This document shows positions 31,306 through 42,995 of a DNA stretch of 49,161 nucleotides, piece after piece. Position 1 is the stretch's first letter; each line of letters opens with the position of its first letter. The stretch comes from an uncultured Bacteroidales bacterium. Lineage in GTDB: Bacteria > Bacteroidota > Bacteroidia > Bacteroidales > UBA932. The translations under genes and the position numbers were made by a program. A model generated the notes under the pieces. That model had not been told where the DNA came from. It searched no databases and was given only the letters and a program-made list of their open reading frames with translations. The stretch is taken from NCBI GenBank assembly GCA_900318565.1, contig ONLD01000009.1, forward strand, positions 1-49,161, in the 5' to 3' direction.

Positions 31306-31313
31306 CAAAATTA
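31306..31313 (-). promoter_or_regulatory. -7 element abutting the guanylyltransferase start
   Basis: The minus strand reads TAATTTTG at 31313-31306, leaving only four bases before the ATG at 31301. A leaderless message is predicted. It faces the divergent box at 31325-31332. Confidence 0.5.
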
Positions 31314-31324
31314 ACATTTTTTAT

Positions 31325-31332
31325 TATATTTG
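31325..31332 (+). promoter_or_regulatory. -7 element of the seven-gene envelope unit
   Basis: TATATTTG ends seven bases before the ATG at 31340. It is the only promoter-like element seen for the 31340-36918 unit, which ends at the terminator 36936-36971. Confidence 0.55.
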
Positions 31333-31339
31333 TGAAATA

Positions 31340-31900
31340 ATGGACGCTAAAAGACTTGACCGATTCGAAGATATCCTGCGGGACGGCCTCGTGAAATTAT
31401 GCCACGGCGAAGGTTTGTGCCCTGATAGACTGCCCTCCACCCCTGACCTGGAGGAAGCCTGGGCGCGCTACGCCAAGCCATATATAGCCGATGCCGTGGA
31501 GAACTTCAACCAGTATCCCGAAGCGGCCCTCGCCTGGGCGGCGTTTCTCGGTATGGGAGTGGCGCATAACTGGGACCTGGACTGGCAGGCCCACAAAAAT
31601 GACGACTACACGTCCTACTACGGCCCCCGCGGCTGGGACGACCTGGACGAATACATCCTCGGACCGTTCCTCCGCCTGACCCCCGAATTCGCAAAGAAAG
31701 TCTCCGGAGCCTTCGACAGCTGCGCGCTTGCCGCTATGGGACTTATGCGCCACGAGGGCATAGAGACCTGGACCGAAGACGGCTTCTGGGCCATCGCACG
31801 CATCTGCGGAGTGATGTTCCGGCTCGGCGCCGGCGTGGAGCTCCACAGGCTGGGATACAAGATGACGGCAGTGCCGATTATAACAACAAAACAATCATAA
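31340..31900 (+). CDS. Conserved Bacteroidota protein of unknown function
   Basis: A 186-residue soluble, mostly helical cytoplasmic protein without a signal peptide. Landmark segments are YPEAALAWAAFLGMGVAHNWDLDW, shown here only in part as ALAWAAFLGMGVAHNWD, then RGWDDLDEYI and GVMFRLGAGVELHRLGYKM. I recall similar short proteins in Bacteroides genomes, all hypothetical. It is the first gene of the unit that continues with six exported proteins, with a three-base gap to the next ATG, and it is the only member that stays in the cytoplasm. A regulatory or chaperone role in the unit is possible but unsupported by motif. Confidence 0.75.
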   Translation: MDAKRLDRFEDILRDGLVKLCHGEGLCPDRLPSTPDLEEAWARYAKPYIADAVENFNQYPEAALAWAAFLGMGVAHNWDLDWQAHKNDDYTSYYGPRGWDDLDEYILGPFLRLTPEFAKKVSGAFDSCALAAMGLMRHEGIETWTEDGFWAIARICGVMFRLGAGVELHRLGYKMTAVPIITTKQS

Positions 31901-31903
31901 CCT

Positions 31904-33457
31904 ATGCTGAAAAGACTCATTTTAACCGCCACTGCGGCAATCCTGTGCTGTTCTATGACCGCCCAGGAAAAAATCAAGCAGGTAGTCACCTCCGACTACA
32001 ACCGCAACAGCGTCTCGATGGTAGCCATCCAGCGCGGAGACAGCTACGACTCCGCCACGACAAGCGCCGTTGCATCCTTCTCCCCCGGAGAAAAATTCGA
32101 CATCAACCGCATCAACACCAAGACCCTTCGCATCAGCAAGCTGCGTTCAGAGGCAGTCTATCAGAGCGAAGTTGACGGGGTCGTCGGCGGCGTCGGATTC
32201 GCAAAGGAAATCCTCGCATCGATTTTCAACCGCGACTCCAAGGGTATGATGAACGACAAGACCGTCCGTTACCGCGGCAACTACGACGCCAAGGACCAGG
32301 ACGTCATCAACGCACGCGCCGCCCGTGTGGGCGAAGACGCTCTCGGCGACCTGGGCCAGAAGCTCGTGGCCGCGAGCTATGTCGTGGTAAACGATTTCTA
32401 CAAGATCGAGCGTGAGACAGACAAGCGAGGCAAAGTGTACTGGAGCACCAATGCCAGGGCCTATGCCTACAAGCTGGATCTCGACGAGAGTTCGCTCTAT
32501 GACTTCTACGAGAAGTGCTGGATTTACGACGAAGACGACGAGGCGACCCGCGCCGCAAAAATCAGCGCCTTCAACAACCTCGCAATCGGCCTCGTGCCCG
32601 TGGCCTCCGCTTCCACGTCCGCCACTTCTTCCACGGTCGAAGATGCGGCAGCCGAATGCCTCAGCGGCCTGATTACCGGCCTTGAGAACCAGATTTCCGA
32701 CTGGGAAGTCGCCGTGACCGTAAGCGCCCGCCGCCCCCTGAGGGCCAAGATAGGCACGAAGGAAGGCCTGAAGAACGGAGACCGCTATCGCGCGTATTCT
32801 TATCGTGAAGACAACAACGGCAACCTGGTGTCCGTGCCCCGCGGATTCCTCAGAGCTACCGAGGTCTCCAGCAACACCGGTATGTCCATCGGCGAGACCG
32901 AACCTTCGGAATTCTACCAGATATCGGGCCTTGCCAACATCGATGAAGGCTGGACCATCAAACAGTCCAACGACCTCGGCCTCGGCGTTATGGCAGGTAT
33001 CAAGACCGGCTCGATGGGCAAACTCGCCCTGGCCGTGGATATTGATTTCCTGATGGATGTAAAGACCGGCGGCTCAATGTCTTACGCCCTCTTCAGCGGG
33101 TCCTTAGACCTCAAGCAAGCCAAATACGTTCCCCTCTTCTTCGGCATAGGCTACGGCTACGGCCTGCACCTGAGCCGCTTCTTCGAAGTGATGCCTTACG
33201 CTATGATAGGTATGGACCACATCGGTTACTCGAGCACCGACAACAGCAAAGACCGCTTCGTACGCGAATCCGCCCTGGTGCTGGAGCCCGGCGTGAGGGC
33301 CGCTGTAAATGTGGCATACCCCTTGCAAGTGTTCGTCAAGGCGTTCGTGGACTGGAACCCCGAGTTCATCCAGGGCAGCCTGTACAAGCTTTATAACGAA
33401 ACTGTCGGCCACAAGAGCGGCTTCGGTCTGCAGGCCGGTTTGAAATGGACATTCTAA
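31904..33457 (+). CDS. Exported multidomain protein with C-terminal outer-membrane barrel
   Basis: A 517-residue protein with a signal peptide (residues 1-20, ending CSMTAQ). Residues 25-215 are soluble and contain ARAARVGEDALGDLGQKLVA, a helical segment of the kind seen in LPP20/FlgT-like proteins. Residues about 265-330 form a small beta domain (ARRPLRAKIGTKEGLKNGDR, then GFLRATEVSSNTG) that resembles the C-terminal SH3-like domain of FlgT. The last 170 residues alternate hydrophobic and polar residues like an eight-stranded outer-membrane barrel and end in KWTF with the terminal Phe. It may be the outer-membrane anchor of an assembly made with the next five proteins. Function unknown. Confidence 0.78.
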   Translation: MLKRLILTATAAILCCSMTAQEKIKQVVTSDYNRNSVSMVAIQRGDSYDSATTSAVASFSPGEKFDINRINTKTLRISKLRSEAVYQSEVDGVVGGVGFAKEILASIFNRDSKGMMNDKTVRYRGNYDAKDQDVINARAARVGEDALGDLGQKLVAASYVVVNDFYKIERETDKRGKVYWSTNARAYAYKLDLDESSLYDFYEKCWIYDEDDEATRAAKISAFNNLAIGLVPVASASTSATSSTVEDAAAECLSGLITGLENQISDWEVAVTVSARRPLRAKIGTKEGLKNGDRYRAYSYREDNNGNLVSVPRGFLRATEVSSNTGMSIGETEPSEFYQISGLANIDEGWTIKQSNDLGLGVMAGIKTGSMGKLALAVDIDFLMDVKTGGSMSYALFSGSLDLKQAKYVPLFFGIGYGYGLHLSRFFEVMPYAMIGMDHIGYSSTDNSKDRFVRESALVLEPGVRAAVNVAYPLQVFVKAFVDWNPEFIQGSLYKLYNETVGHKSGFGLQAGLKWTF

Positions 33458-33471
33458 TTCAACAGCAAGAT

Positions 33472-33987
33472 ATGAGAAAAACAATTATGATCGCGCTCAC
33501 CCTGCTGATGACATTCTCGGCAGTGAGTGCCAGCGCCCAGAGCAAGGACCGCAGAAAGTCCTTCAAGAGCTGGGACAACTACGAAATCACCACTGAAAAA
33601 GTCGGTGTGGACGGTACCAAGTTCGTCAAGGTCTGGGGCTTCGGCAAGACTGTCGATGCAGCCACTATGGCCGCAAAGGAGAACGCCGTACACGCTTGTA
33701 TCTTCAGGGGCATCCCCGGCAACTCCACCGCTATGAGTACGCCTCCCATCTGCCCCAACCCCGACACTCTCGCCTCCCACGAGGACTATTTCAACACTTT
33801 CTTCGCCCCCGGCGGTCCTTACCTCGCCTATGTCAGTATGACCACCGACGGAGTCCCCTCCGGCACCGACAGGCGCAAGGTCAAGGGCGGCTACAAGGTC
33901 GGCATCTACGTCCAGGTGATGTATGACAACCTCAAGCGCAAGCTCGAGGCCGACGGCATCGCACGTAAACTCAGCTCCGGTTTTTAG
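33472..33987 (+). CDS. Exported LPP20-like protein, paralogue of 35942-36382
   Basis: A 171-residue protein with a signal peptide (residues 1-22, ending SASAQ). The ATG at 33472 starts the signal; a GTG/ATG further upstream would not. The core VKVWGFGKTVDAATMAAKEN, then AVHACIFRGI, has the strand-helix pattern of LPP20/FlgT N-terminal domains. The sequence continues EDYFNTFFAPGGPYLAYVSM and KVKGGYKVGIYVQVMYDNLK, ending in KLEADGIARKL. The same order of blocks occurs in the protein at 35942-36382, so the two are paralogues. It lies between the barrel protein and the DUF6175 protein, with 14- and 3-base gaps. Function unknown. Confidence 0.78.
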   Translation: MRKTIMIALTLLMTFSAVSASAQSKDRRKSFKSWDNYEITTEKVGVDGTKFVKVWGFGKTVDAATMAAKENAVHACIFRGIPGNSTAMSTPPICPNPDTLASHEDYFNTFFAPGGPYLAYVSMTTDGVPSGTDRRKVKGGYKVGIYVQVMYDNLKRKLEADGIARKLSSGF

Positions 33988-33990
33988 GAT

Positions 33991-34962
33991 ATGAAAAAAA
34001 CAATCGTAATCGCAGCACTGCTGCTCGCCTTCCAGTTTGTCGGCTGGTCACAGGCTAAGAAACCGACCATTATGGTCGTACCCGCCGACGCTTTCTGTGA
34101 GCGTTACGGCTATGTCCAGCAGGCCAACGCAATGGGCCAGACCGTTTCCTCCCCCGACTATTCGAGGGCTATGAAGGAAAATGCGGACATCCGCACCCTC
34201 GTCGCCGCGATGGCTGATTTTATGGCCAAGAACGACTTCCCCATCCAGAGCCTCGAACAGGAGCTCAAGCGCCTCCAGACCGAGGACGCCGAGCTCGCTA
34301 TGATGACCGGCAAGAACTCCGGCGCTGAAGTGGACGAGACTCCTCTCGAGAGGCTCCGCAGGAGCGCCAAGGCTGACATCATCCTCGACCTTGACTACGA
34401 TGTGCACCGCATCGGCCCCCAGAAGCAGGTCACTTTCAATCTCCAGGCAATCGACGCCTACTCCTCCAAGATCATCTCCGGCAACACCGGCGCCAGCACG
34501 GCAGCCAACGTGCCCTTGACTTCCCTGCTTGAGGAGTGCGTGCTCAGCTTCAAGGACAATTTCCTCAGCGGCCTGCAGCACTACTTCGACGACCTGTTCG
34601 CCAACGGACGCGAGATTTCCGTCACCCTTCTCCGCTACAACAACTGCCCCGTCGATTTCGAGGAGGAGTATGAAGTTAATGGAGAAGAGTACGAGCTCGC
34701 CGAAATCATCGAAGCCTGGATGGCCGACAATACAGTGGAAGGCCGTTTCACGACTGCCGCCAAGTCCGCCAACCGCCTGCGTTTCAACCAGGTGCGCATC
34801 CCTCTCTACGCCCAGAATATGAACGGCCGCGACGTGGCCATCGACGCCGAAGCCTTCGTCAAGCCGCTCGTCCGTATGCTCAAGAAAGCTCCTTACAAAC
34901 TGACCGTCGGTTCCGCCCCCAGAGGTCTCGGTGACGTCTGGATTACCATCGGCGACAAATAG
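33991..34962 (+). CDS. DUF6175-family exported protein
   Basis: A 323-residue protein with a signal peptide (residues 1-21, ending GWSQA). It matches my recollection of the DUF6175 family: KKPTIMVVPADAFCERYGYV at the start, MAKNDFPIQSLEQELKRLQT, KADIILDLDYDVHRIGPQKQ, and GREISVTLLRYNNC with IRIPLYAQN-like ending. The strand order, with a KADI strand followed by an IDAYSSKII strand, resembles the TolB-N/CsgG fold in which monomers assemble into rings. That structural link is inference. It is third among the six exported members of the unit. No enzyme motif is seen. Confidence 0.8.
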   Translation: MKKTIVIAALLLAFQFVGWSQAKKPTIMVVPADAFCERYGYVQQANAMGQTVSSPDYSRAMKENADIRTLVAAMADFMAKNDFPIQSLEQELKRLQTEDAELAMMTGKNSGAEVDETPLERLRRSAKADIILDLDYDVHRIGPQKQVTFNLQAIDAYSSKIISGNTGASTAANVPLTSLLEECVLSFKDNFLSGLQHYFDDLFANGREISVTLLRYNNCPVDFEEEYEVNGEEYELAEIIEAWMADNTVEGRFTTAAKSANRLRFNQVRIPLYAQNMNGRDVAIDAEAFVKPLVRMLKKAPYKLTVGSAPRGLGDVWITIGDK

Positions 34963-34971
34963 TGAATGCTT

Positions 34972-35940
34972 ATGAAAAAGATAATTGCCAGTATTCTGCT
35001 TGCGGGCGTCTGCGTGCTGTCATTTGCCCAGAACAATGAAGGCAAGATGGACGACAAGGGCCGCATCGCCCTTACTCCCGTCATCCTGGAAAACAGTTTC
35101 ATTCCCCCGGCAGCATCCAACGTTGTGCTCAACAAACTGACCCAGATCGTCACCAAGAACGGCCTCGCAGGCGACAGCTTCGACCCCCGTTTCATCATCA
35201 CCGCCAATATGGTGGAACTCAGCCACGACGTCACGGCCACGACCCCTCCTATGCAGGCCCTGACCCTGACTCCTACGCTGTATATAGGTGACGCCGCCAC
35301 AGGCACCCTCTACGCCACCTGCGCACTCGATCCCGTCAAGGGAGCAGGCACCAACGAGACCAAGGCCTATATGCAGGCCGTCAAGATGCTCAGGGCCGAC
35401 ACCCCCGCAGTCAAGCAGTTCATCGAGACCGGAAAGAAGCGCATCGTCGAGTGGTACAACACCCAGATCGACTTCCTCATCTCCGAGGCCAACGCCCTTG
35501 CCGGACAGGACAAGTATGACGAGGCCATCGCCCTGCTCTTCACCGTCCCCGAGGTGTGCAAAGAGGCTTTCGACAAAGCTATGCGCGCCGCCGAGCAGAT
35601 TTTCCAGCAGAAAATCGACATCGAGGGTGCATACCTCCTGAATATGGCCACCCACACGTGGAATGCCAACCAGAGCTGGAGCGGAGCCAACGAAGCCGCC
35701 GGCTATCTCTCACAGATCCACCCTCTTTCCTCCGCCGTACAGGGAGGTATGGTCCTTTCCCAGACCATCGCCGCCCGCGTCAAGGAGCTTGACAACAGGG
35801 AGTGGAGTTTCGCTATGAAGCAGTTCGACGCTTCCGTCAGCCTCGAGAGAGCAAGAATCGAAGCTATGGGAGAAATCGGCAAGGCTATGGCCAAGCGTCC
35901 CGTCAACTACTACAATATGAACAGTTTCGGCTGGTGGTGA
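34972..35940 (+). CDS. Exported TolB-N/CsgG-like protein of unknown function
   Basis: A 322-residue protein with a signal peptide (residues 1-19, ending VLSFAQ). The ATG at 34972 is preferred over 34966 because the signal then begins MKKIIAS. Residues 25-160 have alternating strands (GRIALTPVILENSF, DPRFIITANMVELSHDVTAT, LTLTPTLYIGDAATGTLYAT) that resemble the TolB-N/CsgG fold. Residues 165-240 are helical with a TPR-like spacing (EANALAGQDKYDEAIALLF). The C-terminus is helical and ends SFGWW. It follows the DUF6175 gene by nine bases and precedes the second LPP20-like gene by one. Function unknown. Confidence 0.76.
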   Translation: MKKIIASILLAGVCVLSFAQNNEGKMDDKGRIALTPVILENSFIPPAASNVVLNKLTQIVTKNGLAGDSFDPRFIITANMVELSHDVTATTPPMQALTLTPTLYIGDAATGTLYATCALDPVKGAGTNETKAYMQAVKMLRADTPAVKQFIETGKKRIVEWYNTQIDFLISEANALAGQDKYDEAIALLFTVPEVCKEAFDKAMRAAEQIFQQKIDIEGAYLLNMATHTWNANQSWSGANEAAGYLSQIHPLSSAVQGGMVLSQTIAARVKELDNREWSFAMKQFDASVSLERARIEAMGEIGKAMAKRPVNYYNMNSFGWW

Positions 35941-35941
35941 T

Positions 35942-36382
35942 ATGAAAAAGATAATATTCGCAATGATGGCGCTGCTCCTCACGGCAGGAGCTTTCGCCCA
36001 GGAAACCGAGTGCATCAGCAAGGAGATGGACGGCAGCCTCACGCTCCGCGTGTGGGGCACCGGCCGCAACAGGACCGACGCTCTCGAGCAGGCCAAGAAA
36101 CAGGCCGTGTATGACGTGCTTTTCAAGGGTATAACCCGCGGCAACACCGACTACAATATGCGTCCTATAATGACCGAGGTCAACGCCCGTCAGCGTTATC
36201 AGGACTACTTCGACATTTTCTTTATGGACCGCGGCGAATACCGCAAGTACATCAGTATGGAAGACAAGAGGGCCGGTTCCACCCGCACCCGCCGCAACTA
36301 CCGCGACGTGACAGTGGGTACCACCGTCAGGGTGCTCGTACCCCAGCTTCGCGCAAGACTTAAAGAAGACGGATTGTTATGA
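35942..36382 (+). CDS. Exported LPP20-like protein, paralogue of 33472-33987
   Basis: A 146-residue protein with a signal peptide (residues 1-18, ending AGAFAQ). The core LTLRVWGTGRNRTDALEQAK, then KQAVYDVLFKGI, aligns with VKVWGFGKTVDAATMAAKEN in its paralogue, and QDYFDIFFMDRGEYRKYISM aligns with EDYFNTFFAPGGPYLAYVSM. The end (VRVLVPQLRARLKEDGLL) also matches. One base separates it from the previous gene and it overlaps the next by four (ATGA). Two related small proteins in one unit suggest either a hetero-oligomer or two positions in a layered structure. Confidence 0.78.
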   Translation: MKKIIFAMMALLLTAGAFAQETECISKEMDGSLTLRVWGTGRNRTDALEQAKKQAVYDVLFKGITRGNTDYNMRPIMTEVNARQRYQDYFDIFFMDRGEYRKYISMEDKRAGSTRTRRNYRDVTVGTTVRVLVPQLRARLKEDGLL

Positions 36383-36918
36383 AAAGAATGATGCTTTTGC
36401 TCAGCTTCGCGCTGATGCTGCTTCCCGCCTCCCTTATGGGCCAGGCAAAGCACACCGACTACAAGCTTCCCGAAGTGCCCAAACGGGCCGAATACATCGA
36501 CTTCCCGAGCCTCGACCAGGGACTTTGGTTCGCCGCGCAGGTCACGCCCGGCATTTTCGTCCGGGAAGGATTCACTATTAGAGCTGAACTCATTGCAGGC
36601 TATCGCTTTGGTGAGTTTTTCAGAGTGGGTGCCGGAATAGCTCCCGGAGTCTTGGGCCCCGTCTTCTATATGCCGGCTTTTCTGGATCTCCGCGGAAATA
36701 TCATTTCTCAGGAATCAAGGATGGTCGTCCCATATTGGAACCTTGACGCCGGTTACTCCATAAGTCGTGTTTACAGCGGCATCTACCTTTCTCCCACAGT
36801 GGGAGTCAGGGTTGGAATGCCTCGAAACGATTTCATCGCCGGACTTAGCTATATTGCCCAGCTGCTCCCCGGAACAGCTGTCCACGGTATCGCCCTTAAA
36901 CTGGGTTTCGAGTTCTGA
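36379..36918 (+). CDS. Small outer-membrane beta-barrel protein
   Basis: A 179-residue protein with a signal peptide (residues 1-21, ending SLMGQ). The mature protein alternates aromatic and small residues in strand-length stretches (GLWFAAQVTPGIFVREGFTI, AELIAGYRFGEFFRVGAG, YSGIYLSPTVGVRVGM) and ends KLGFEF with the terminal Phe, the signature of a small outer-membrane barrel. It is the last gene of the unit, just ahead of a strong terminator. With the C-terminal barrel of 31904-33457 it gives the unit two outer-membrane components. Confidence 0.82.
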   Translation: MKRMMLLLSFALMLLPASLMGQAKHTDYKLPEVPKRAEYIDFPSLDQGLWFAAQVTPGIFVREGFTIRAELIAGYRFGEFFRVGAGIAPGVLGPVFYMPAFLDLRGNIISQESRMVVPYWNLDAGYSISRVYSGIYLSPTVGVRVGMPRNDFIAGLSYIAQLLPGTAVHGIALKLGFEF

Positions 36919-36935
36919 TTAAATCGCTTTGTTCT

Positions 36936-36971
36936 CAAAAGTCCGCAGGCTGCTTAGTCTGCGGACTTTTG
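36936..36971 (+). terminator. Intrinsic terminator ending the envelope unit
   Basis: A 13-bp stem (CAAAAGTCCGCAG paired with CTGCGGACTTTTG) with a 10-base loop and T-rich 3' side follows the last gene by 17 bases. The sulfatase -7 box begins three bases after it. Confidence 0.85.
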
Positions 36972-36973
36972 TT

Positions 36974-36981
36974 TATATTTG
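36974..36981 (+). promoter_or_regulatory. -7 element of the sulfatase gene
   Basis: TATATTTG ends 22 bases before the ATG at 37004 and directly follows the terminator, so the sulfatase is its own unit. No -33 TTTG is clear. Confidence 0.5.
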
Positions 36982-37003
36982 CACTCGTCATAACGGAATT
37001 CTT

Positions 37004-41811: not shown

Positions 41812-42867
41812 CTATTTTATCTTGTATTCAGATATGTTCTGGATTCCGGGGATGCCGTAATAGGATTCGACAATGTCGCCCCGCAGGAAAACCTGCTTCC
41901 CCAAAAGTTCGGGGTGGTCCACCAGATTCAGTTCATCGCGGATGTCCCCTTTGGCCAGCTGGACGGAAAGGCAGGATGATTTCTCCCGGCAGGAAGACTT
42001 GGCCGCCAGCACCAGATTCGTCCTTGAAGAGAACGGAGCCTCGAACGAGCATTTGCTCGAAGACAGGTCCCCTCCCACGATGTATCCGTACACCCAGACA
42101 TCCTGCTCCCCGGTGTGTCCCTTCGCATCAGGCACGCTATAGGCGTCATCCGTCTTGCCGCCTCCGCCACCGCCGCCTATTATAAAGTTGTCATCCACCC
42201 AGTTACGGGTAGTATCCACCTGTACCTGCACGCCGCTTGCCGCCCCTCCGGCCCCTACGTTGACGCCGAGAGTAAGCACCTGCTGAGGCTCAAGACGGCG
42301 GGTAAAAAGCGTCTTGTCCTCGCCCCCTTCAGACATCACAAGATTCACCGTGCCGGGAATAAAATACGCAATCCGCTTCTCGCTGTAGCCATACATCAAC
42401 TTCCCGGAAGCCGCCTTCAGGAACAGCGACGCCCCCGGGAAAGCAGTCAGGAACTCGGGAGCGATACGCAAGCGTATTCCGGCATTCATCTGCACGCAGG
42501 CAAGAGTCACTACCGTAGTCTTTCCAGCCTTGATGGATGCGACTTGCACGTCGCCGTACTGGGGCTGATCGAACTTCGGCTCCTCGAAATCGCACGAACG
42601 GGCGGATACCGTATAAGTCCCCTCGTCAAGCTCGAACTGGTCTTTTGACGCGCCGTATTTGCCATCATAAATATAGTTGCCTTTGGCGTCGGTAACCGTC
42701 AATATGAATTCGTTGGTATCCGGGAATGCCGGCGAGCGGGTCAACGGAACGGTGCCGGAAGCAAATCGAACCTGGAGAATGCCCTGTCTTCCGAAAGTCT
42801 GCATCAGAGTGTCGCAGGAGGCCAGCAGGGGGATGGCCGCAATCAAAGTCAAAAGTATCTTTTTCAT
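41812..42867 (-). CDS. Lipoprotein with DUF4493-like and DUF6359-like domains
   Basis: A 351-residue lipoprotein (lipobox IPLLASC). Residues 20-210 match the pattern of DUF4493 proteins: a leading GILQVRF strand, FILTVTDAKGNYIYDGKY, DEGTYTVSARS, YGDVQVASIKAGKTTVVTLA and a Cys-containing end of that block. After a run of seven glycines, residues 245-350 resemble DUF6359 (EQDVWVYGYIVGGDL, TNLVLAAKSS, SVQLAKGDIRDELNLVDHPE, LGKQVFLRGDIVESYYG), an OB-like fold. Such proteins are surface lipoproteins of Bacteroidota gut species with unknown ligands. The ATG at 42867 is chosen because it starts the lipoprotein signal. No partner gene is adjacent. Confidence 0.8.
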   Translation of the reverse strand: MKKILLTLIAAIPLLASCDTLMQTFGRQGILQVRFASGTVPLTRSPAFPDTNEFILTVTDAKGNYIYDGKYGASKDQFELDEGTYTVSARSCDFEEPKFDQPQYGDVQVASIKAGKTTVVTLACVQMNAGIRLRIAPEFLTAFPGASLFLKAASGKLMYGYSEKRIAYFIPGTVNLVMSEGGEDKTLFTRRLEPQQVLTLGVNVGAGGAASGVQVQVDTTRNWVDDNFIIGGGGGGGKTDDAYSVPDAKGHTGEQDVWVYGYIVGGDLSSSKCSFEAPFSSRTNLVLAAKSSCREKSSCLSVQLAKGDIRDELNLVDHPELLGKQVFLRGDIVESYYGIPGIQNISEYKIK

Positions 42868-42995
42868 AGTCATTGAGTTTTGGCCGGCAATATAAGCCAA
42901 AACTTCCGTCCCGGCTTTAAAAATCAGAAAAATCTTTCTTTAAAAAAATCTTTTCGAAAAATACAGATACATAATTTTTTCGAAAGACAGAAAGA

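Follow-up and report, generated by a model that had tools for sequence, protein, structure and literature searches.

The window analysed here, a stretch of 49,161 nucleotides (positions 1-49,161 of contig ONLD01000009.1, assembly GCA_900318565.1) from an uncultured Bacteroidales bacterium of lineage UBA932, contains a unit of seven co-directional + strand open reading frames (ORFs), named g1-g7 and spanning 31340-36918, one of which, g4, belongs to the family DUF6175. Judging from sequence comparison, the unit may code for a ring-and-barrel structure in the cell envelope not described before. Its core is g2-g3-g4-g5 with g6, g1 being a passenger, and the explanation favoured, with a probability of about 0.42, is that the core makes a periplasmic ring or disk that is associated with the outer membrane, is independent of flagella and, here, is anchored through a barrel of g2. 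Its reading as a ring or disk derives from the make-up of the flagellar H ring (FlgT, FlgO and FlgP) and a common SHS2-like fold. The conservation of gene order far beyond close kin is counted for it, as is the extent to which the scores of g3 with a FlgT N-domain, and of g2 with FlgT_C-like profiles, exceed those of all unrelated families and reversed decoys.

DUF6175 was followed in samples of the order (295 genomes), the family (199) and the phylum (296), with the window genome counted in each. It is present in 67 of the order-sample genomes, in 66 of them over the cut-off, in 64 of the family sample and in 13 of the phylum sample. Within the genus its occurrence is patchy (6/19 members among the matches listed), and the close relatives that have names are mostly Bacteroidales assemblies from rumen and omasum; viral contigs yielded no relative. 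For gene order, 40 DUF6175 stretches of the order sample were picked by hand to spread over the ranking, with one locus (L046) from a separate search, and the loci are partly non-independent, some genomes having given two and L067 and L069 being from one genus. In the close clade (the window and L032-L045) g5 comes after g4, and g3 before it, in 15/15 loci, with g2 upstream in 14/15, the contig of the remaining locus (L041) beginning at g3. The other 41 loci, L046-L086, have 42 copies of g4, and here g5 directly follows (within 300 bases, on the same strand) in 38, while g3 lies immediately before g4 in 28 copies and 8 are g3-g4 fusions. Beyond this, the next gene upstream that could be recognised is g2 in 21 of the 42, and in 9 it is a different gene, h8, at loci where g2 is not found; g2 is downstream of g5 in five more (L055, L057, L058, L082, L084). 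For 30 short loci of the family, being the best-scoring of the family-sample matches, 28 have g5 after g4, 19 have g3 before it and 1 has g3 fused to it, and for 11 loci of other Bacteroidota the counts are 5, 4 and 7, the misses in both sets being from loci of about 3-4 kb, which leave little sequence on each flank. All seven loci fetched from one other family of the phylum sample (L230-L236) have g3 and g4 as a single protein. A survey of gene order in Bacteroidales had been suggested in a preliminary description of this DNA, made from its letters, and the order did prove to be conserved.

Fold resemblances were sought with hhalign, the scores given being the better of two directions unless stated, against controls of reversed alignments (38 per query, or 34 in a second set) and 20 neighbour families taken as unrelated, one of which proved to be LPP20-like and was kept in the control set. 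A first round left LPP20 unsupported and CsgG little supported. The N-half of g4 scores 42.4 with CsgG, 51.0 with CsgG plus h8, 51.9 with h8 and 32.3 with FlgO, against maxima of 18.5 for reversed and 20.2 for unrelated controls, though in the weaker direction the four scores drop to 35.7, 42.4, 34.0 and 23.2, with reversed decoys at 18.5 or less. By profile, then, this half of the DUF6175 protein is clearly CsgG-like. For g5 the resemblance to CsgG-type profiles is weak (28.0; maxima 21.6 reversed, 16.3 unrelated), and its match to the FlgT N-domain spans just 31-39 columns. The earlier assignment of two proteins to the TolB-N/CsgG type is accordingly retained for g4 and only weakly for g5. 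Mutual matches among g2, g3, g4 and g5 were dropped, as they began near the signal peptides and fell to 11% or less once these were removed.

The character of the g4 N-half also suits a secretion pore of CsgG type, in which g4 (perhaps g5) would be an oligomeric outer-membrane channel through which a surface protein leaves the cell, g2 and g7 having accessory roles, and a protein of 525-564 amino acids, with WG repeats in the one copy scanned and encoded between g5 and g2 at four loci and close to the unit at one more, could be the cargo. However, CsgG finds no match anywhere in the window genome at E 0.001, and among 45 DUF6175 members Pfam CsgG is seen in just one, at E 0.066 (FlgO in two, best E 0.0027), and a secretion pore is considered unlikely.

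The reference for FlgT itself is a set of seven proteins (L238-L244), from 7/98 genomes of one class of the phylum, that combine an N-domain, a CsgG-type domain and a FlgT_C-like domain. The middle domain matches CsgG at 99.9%, one protein matches FlgT_C at E 2.9e-4, below the cut-off, and the N-domain is so named from its position before the CsgG-type domain rather than from a Pfam match. With this N-domain g3 scores 27.1 over 93 columns (maxima 16.2 reversed, 20.2 unrelated), a modest resemblance that would extend to the paralogue of g3, g6. FlgT_N (PF16548) is not among the Pfam families listed for g3/g6 members, nor is LPP20 (PF02169) among the 25 of 33 families listed for 57 of them. The FlgT N-domain in turn scores 26.7 with LPP20 and 26.8 with h15, an LPP20-type neighbour of the unit in relatives (control maximum 17.2), and a remote link between g3 and LPP20 is therefore possible. 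Where two proteins had been taken as LPP20/FlgT-N-like, the FlgT-N part survives modestly and direct LPP20 likeness does not (15.1).

The conserved C-domain of g2 scores 32.7 with FlgT_C-like profiles including h8 (maxima 20.2 reversed, 17.1 unrelated), which suggests, again modestly, a FlgT_C-like domain; 35 g2 members gave no Pfam match to FlgT_C (PF16538) up to E 1. The claim of such a domain ahead of a barrel in g2 thus has modest support, with the addition that the barrel is optional, being present in 20 and absent in 15 of 35 aligned relatives. The final residue of the 20 is F in 18, Y in 1 and L in 1, and window g2 and g7 both terminate in F. Counts of amphipathic segments were reached by 19/500 shuffles for the g2 C-region and 7/500 for g7; the same count for g4, which is not thought to be a barrel, was reached by 35/500. 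Pfam OMP_b-brl is weakly matched by 3/35 g2 members (best E 0.011). These features agree with the two barrel-type C-termini first proposed for g2 and g7. Mean identity in the close clade is 66% for the g2 N-domain, 83% for the FlgT_C-like part and 56% for the barrel, and the greatest conservation being in the second and the least in the third would fit a fixed periplasmic contact with a variable outer face.

In diverged loci g2 appears to be replaced by h8, a CsgG/LpoB-type protein with a FlgT_C-like tail. Three of seven h8 proteins scanned pass the CsgG and LpoB cut-offs and show sub-threshold FlgT_C matches (best E 0.0056), and one of the seven passes LptE instead. LpoB acts as a regulator for a penicillin-binding protein, and with LpoB-type proteins in place of g2 in relatives, the unit could act in the periplasm to regulate peptidoglycan synthesis, or the attachment of the outer membrane to the wall, with no ring. 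Yet h8 is absent from the window unit, no window product matches LpoB, and a set of several genes, paralogues and a barrel among them, does not resemble LpoB genes, which stand singly, making such a regulator quite unlikely.

For the ring or disk, the following is envisaged. All core products would be exported, going by their signal peptides. The CsgG-type domain would be contributed by g4, while g3 and g6 would contribute, on their modest resemblance, the domain type that stands N-terminal of it in FlgT-architecture proteins; the frequent fusion of g3 to g4 suggests that these two act together. In the window lineage g2 would give both a FlgT_C-like domain and the outer-membrane anchor, where its barrel is absent a lipoprotein may anchor the assembly, and the fast-changing g2 barrel and g7 would face outward. 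Ring formation, subunit contacts and cargo are inferred by analogy with CsgG, FlgT and FlgP. A more specific form, rated as rather doubtful, has Bacteroidota carrying a ring machine, independent of flagella, made from split FlgT-type modules (N from g3/g6, CsgG-type from g4, C from g2) and anchored by an integral barrel, perhaps representing an older envelope toolkit from which H rings and basal disks were recruited.

Several results weigh against a ring or disk. With the middle domain of the FlgT-architecture proteins g4 scores 22.5 one way and 12.9 the other (decoys to 18.3), its C-half, like the g2 N-domain, has no profile match, and the score of g3 with LPP20 lies within controls, above 14 of the 20 unrelated families. 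The FlgT N-domain scores only 12.4, no match, with h9, a second LPP20-type neighbour. Taken with FlgT-architecture C-domains alone, with h8 left aside, g2 scores 23.2 when reversed decoys reach 20.2, and its link to FlgT_C leans on h8, whose own FlgT_C match sits below the cut-off. Against Pfam and NCBIfam, DUF6175 in g4 is the sole family over cut-off among the seven products, and no PDB chain came below E 0.07 for g2-g5 (single-sequence searches with g3, g4 and g5; profiles for g2-g5). At E 0.001 the window genome lacks any Pfam hit to LPP20 and thus shows no lipoprotein partner. Low in absolute terms, too, are the hhalign probabilities, 36% for g3 and 61% for g2, and these, with the lack of Pfam support for either, speak for a conserved envelope operon of other function in which g3 and g2 resemble FlgT parts by accident, the CsgG-like domain being genuine in g4 alone. 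Since both proteins score above all controls and match the kinds of domain found in FlgT-architecture proteins and h8, this too is judged improbable.

The features of the unit are collected in Table 1. The intergenic gaps from g1 to g7 are 3, 14, 3, 9, 1 and -4 bases, and from this spacing the seven genes are probably one transcript. For g3 and g5 the ORF lister opens at 33445 and 34966; the starts used were chosen because the signal peptides begin there. Upstream is the element TATATTTG, which we take to be a Bacteroidota-type -7 motif. The pattern TANNTTTG has 27 copies in the window against 12.7 expected, with 0/100 shuffles reaching 27, and no further + strand copy is inside the unit by pattern count. 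A minus-strand TAATTTTG box is at 31306-31313, within a 38-base gap shared with a divergent nucleotidyltransferase gene. Folding of 36920-36985, around the terminator, gives -28.7 kcal/mol (z -6.9). The original account of a -7 box, seven closely spaced genes on one strand and a strong terminator is confirmed by coordinates, pattern count and stem, and its six signal peptides recur with a simple rule of our own, in 6/7 products, g1 being the one without.

Table 1. Coordinates in the window of the genes g1-g7 and of the presumed signals flanking them
Feature	Position	Strand	Description
-7 promoter element TATATTTG	31325-31332	+	Read in sequence, with pattern count against shuffles; presumed role
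g1	31340-31900	+	186 amino acids, no signal peptide; lineage-specific passenger
g2	31904-33457	+	Predicted exported, 517 amino acids; N-domain ~21-245, FlgT_C-like ~266-354, barrel-like ~358-517
g3	33472-33987	+	Predicted exported, 171 amino acids; like N-domain of FlgT-architecture proteins, presumably SHS2-like
g4	33991-34962	+	DUF6175 protein; CsgG-like N-half, C-half without match
g5	34972-35940	+	Predicted exported, 322 amino acids; weak CsgG likeness in N-domain; TPR-like helices in relatives
g6	35942-36382	+	Predicted exported, 146 amino acids; g3 paralogue
g7	36379-36918	+	Predicted exported, 179 amino acids; barrel-like, lineage-specific
Intrinsic terminator	36936-36971	+	16-pair stem

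The identity of g4, as first proposed, is secure, with DUF6175 (PF19672) matched at E 2.4e-91 and 306.3 bits (cut-off 23) over model positions 1-293 of 293, and the paralogous pair previously noticed is g3 and g6 (29% identity, E 8e-18 by BLASTP). In a midpoint-rooted FastTree of 57 sequences the g6 type is a clade of 12 with support 1.0 that includes copies between g3 and g4 elsewhere, e.g. in L047-L049, and from this spread g3 and g6 seem to be an old pair. Throughout the close clade (the window and 14 other loci) g3 and g4 share a reading frame, split by a stop and one codon (33985-33991), as against true fusion in other lineages. Members of g5 match ARM_TT21 in 15/44 and TPR_19 in 7/44. 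Of the close-clade loci 14/15 have g7, L034 being the exception, and all of L046-L086 lack it; the g7 C-terminus is F or Y in 13/13 aligned, and no Pfam family over cut-off is reported for this protein.

That g1 belongs to the unit, as had been supposed, is rejected. It is beside g2 only in the window and 3/14 other close-clade loci (L037, L039, L045), a few others being cut by contig ends. It is present in 43 genomes of the family sample and is on a different contig from DUF6175 in the 14 others having both; one genome (G450) has a second g1 copy on the same contig, ~91 kb away. At least one of four genes flanking the unit in the window is beside it in 13/14 close-clade loci and in neither L046 nor L064, and because of this failure to recur flanking genes were not used as functional clues. 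Elsewhere in the window, a minus-strand protein at 41812-42900 has DUF4493 and DUF6359 domains.

LPP20-type genes near the unit in relatives are h15 in 15 and h9 in 11 of the 41 loci (on the opposite strand in L052). With hhalign these match LPP20 at 97% and 99%, respectively; the Pfam LPP20 model reaches only E 0.099 and 0.15 with the two h9 scanned and does not match the three h15 scanned, and 5/9 h9 are lipoprotein-like by rule. A further LPP20-like family (95.6%) is at L054:3562-4296, L056:1425-2159 and L076:7449-8081. The protein of 525-564 amino acids is at L055:4834-6522, L057:4716-6386, L058:4554-6248 and L082:8960-10537, and ~3.8 kb from g5 at L073:396-2057. The single copy scanned (L055) has WG repeats at E 1.4e-70, and the protein could be a partner or cargo.

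Should the ring or disk be real, the kinds of part from which flagellar outer-membrane rings and disks are built would work without flagella in a large gut and rumen group, DUF6175, to which Pfam assigns no function, would gain its first functional setting, and the origin of H rings and basal disks would become testable by comparing both systems. A literature search, with most subscription papers outside its reach, found no paper naming DUF6175 and no description of such a unit.

FHIPEP (FlhA family) is the export gate of flagella and injectisomes. It was found in none of the 66 order-sample genomes over the DUF6175 cut-off (the control detected it in 4/14), so the unit is no flagellar H ring. 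No window product is over the cut-off of LpoB (PF13036), and none over that of CsgG (PF03783), for which, as said, the window genome too is negative at E 0.001; no curli gene was recognised beside the unit, none having been searched for by name. The CsgG-like domain of g4, by profile comparison, is what is shared with the curli channel. The Vibrio H ring is composed of FlgT, FlgO and FlgP (PMC6504787, PMC7990780). It differs in that carriers of the unit lack the flagellar export gene, g2 has an integral barrel, no window product has a FlgT_N, FlgT_C or FlgO Pfam match, and FlgP is of the LPP20 type, to which the controls do not let g3 be assigned and which the window genome lacks at E 0.001. 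Unlike FlgT, with N, M and C in one protein, the resemblances are split over g3, g4 and g2, the fusions joining only the first two. An SHS2-like fold is common to FlgP, Lpp20 and FlgT, and ring formation goes with an insert that separates the SHS2 helix from the strand after it (PMC12222027). When the alignment is inspected by eye, a segment of comparable length can be seen at that position in g3. The FlgP basal disk of Campylobacter differs in its flagellum and in the LPP20 profile that g3 does not match, and would be alike in the SHS2-like subunit type of outer-membrane-associated rings, to which g3 may belong. Because the defining features of H ring, CsgG, LPP20 and LpoB were tested and not found, the unit is placed in none of these classes. 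With DUF6175 there is no difference, g4 being a full-length member, and with the Vibrio H ring the unit has in common modest resemblances to the N- and C-domains of FlgT-architecture proteins, a CsgG-type domain, LPP20-type genes near it in relatives, and products that are exported and probably associated with the outer membrane.

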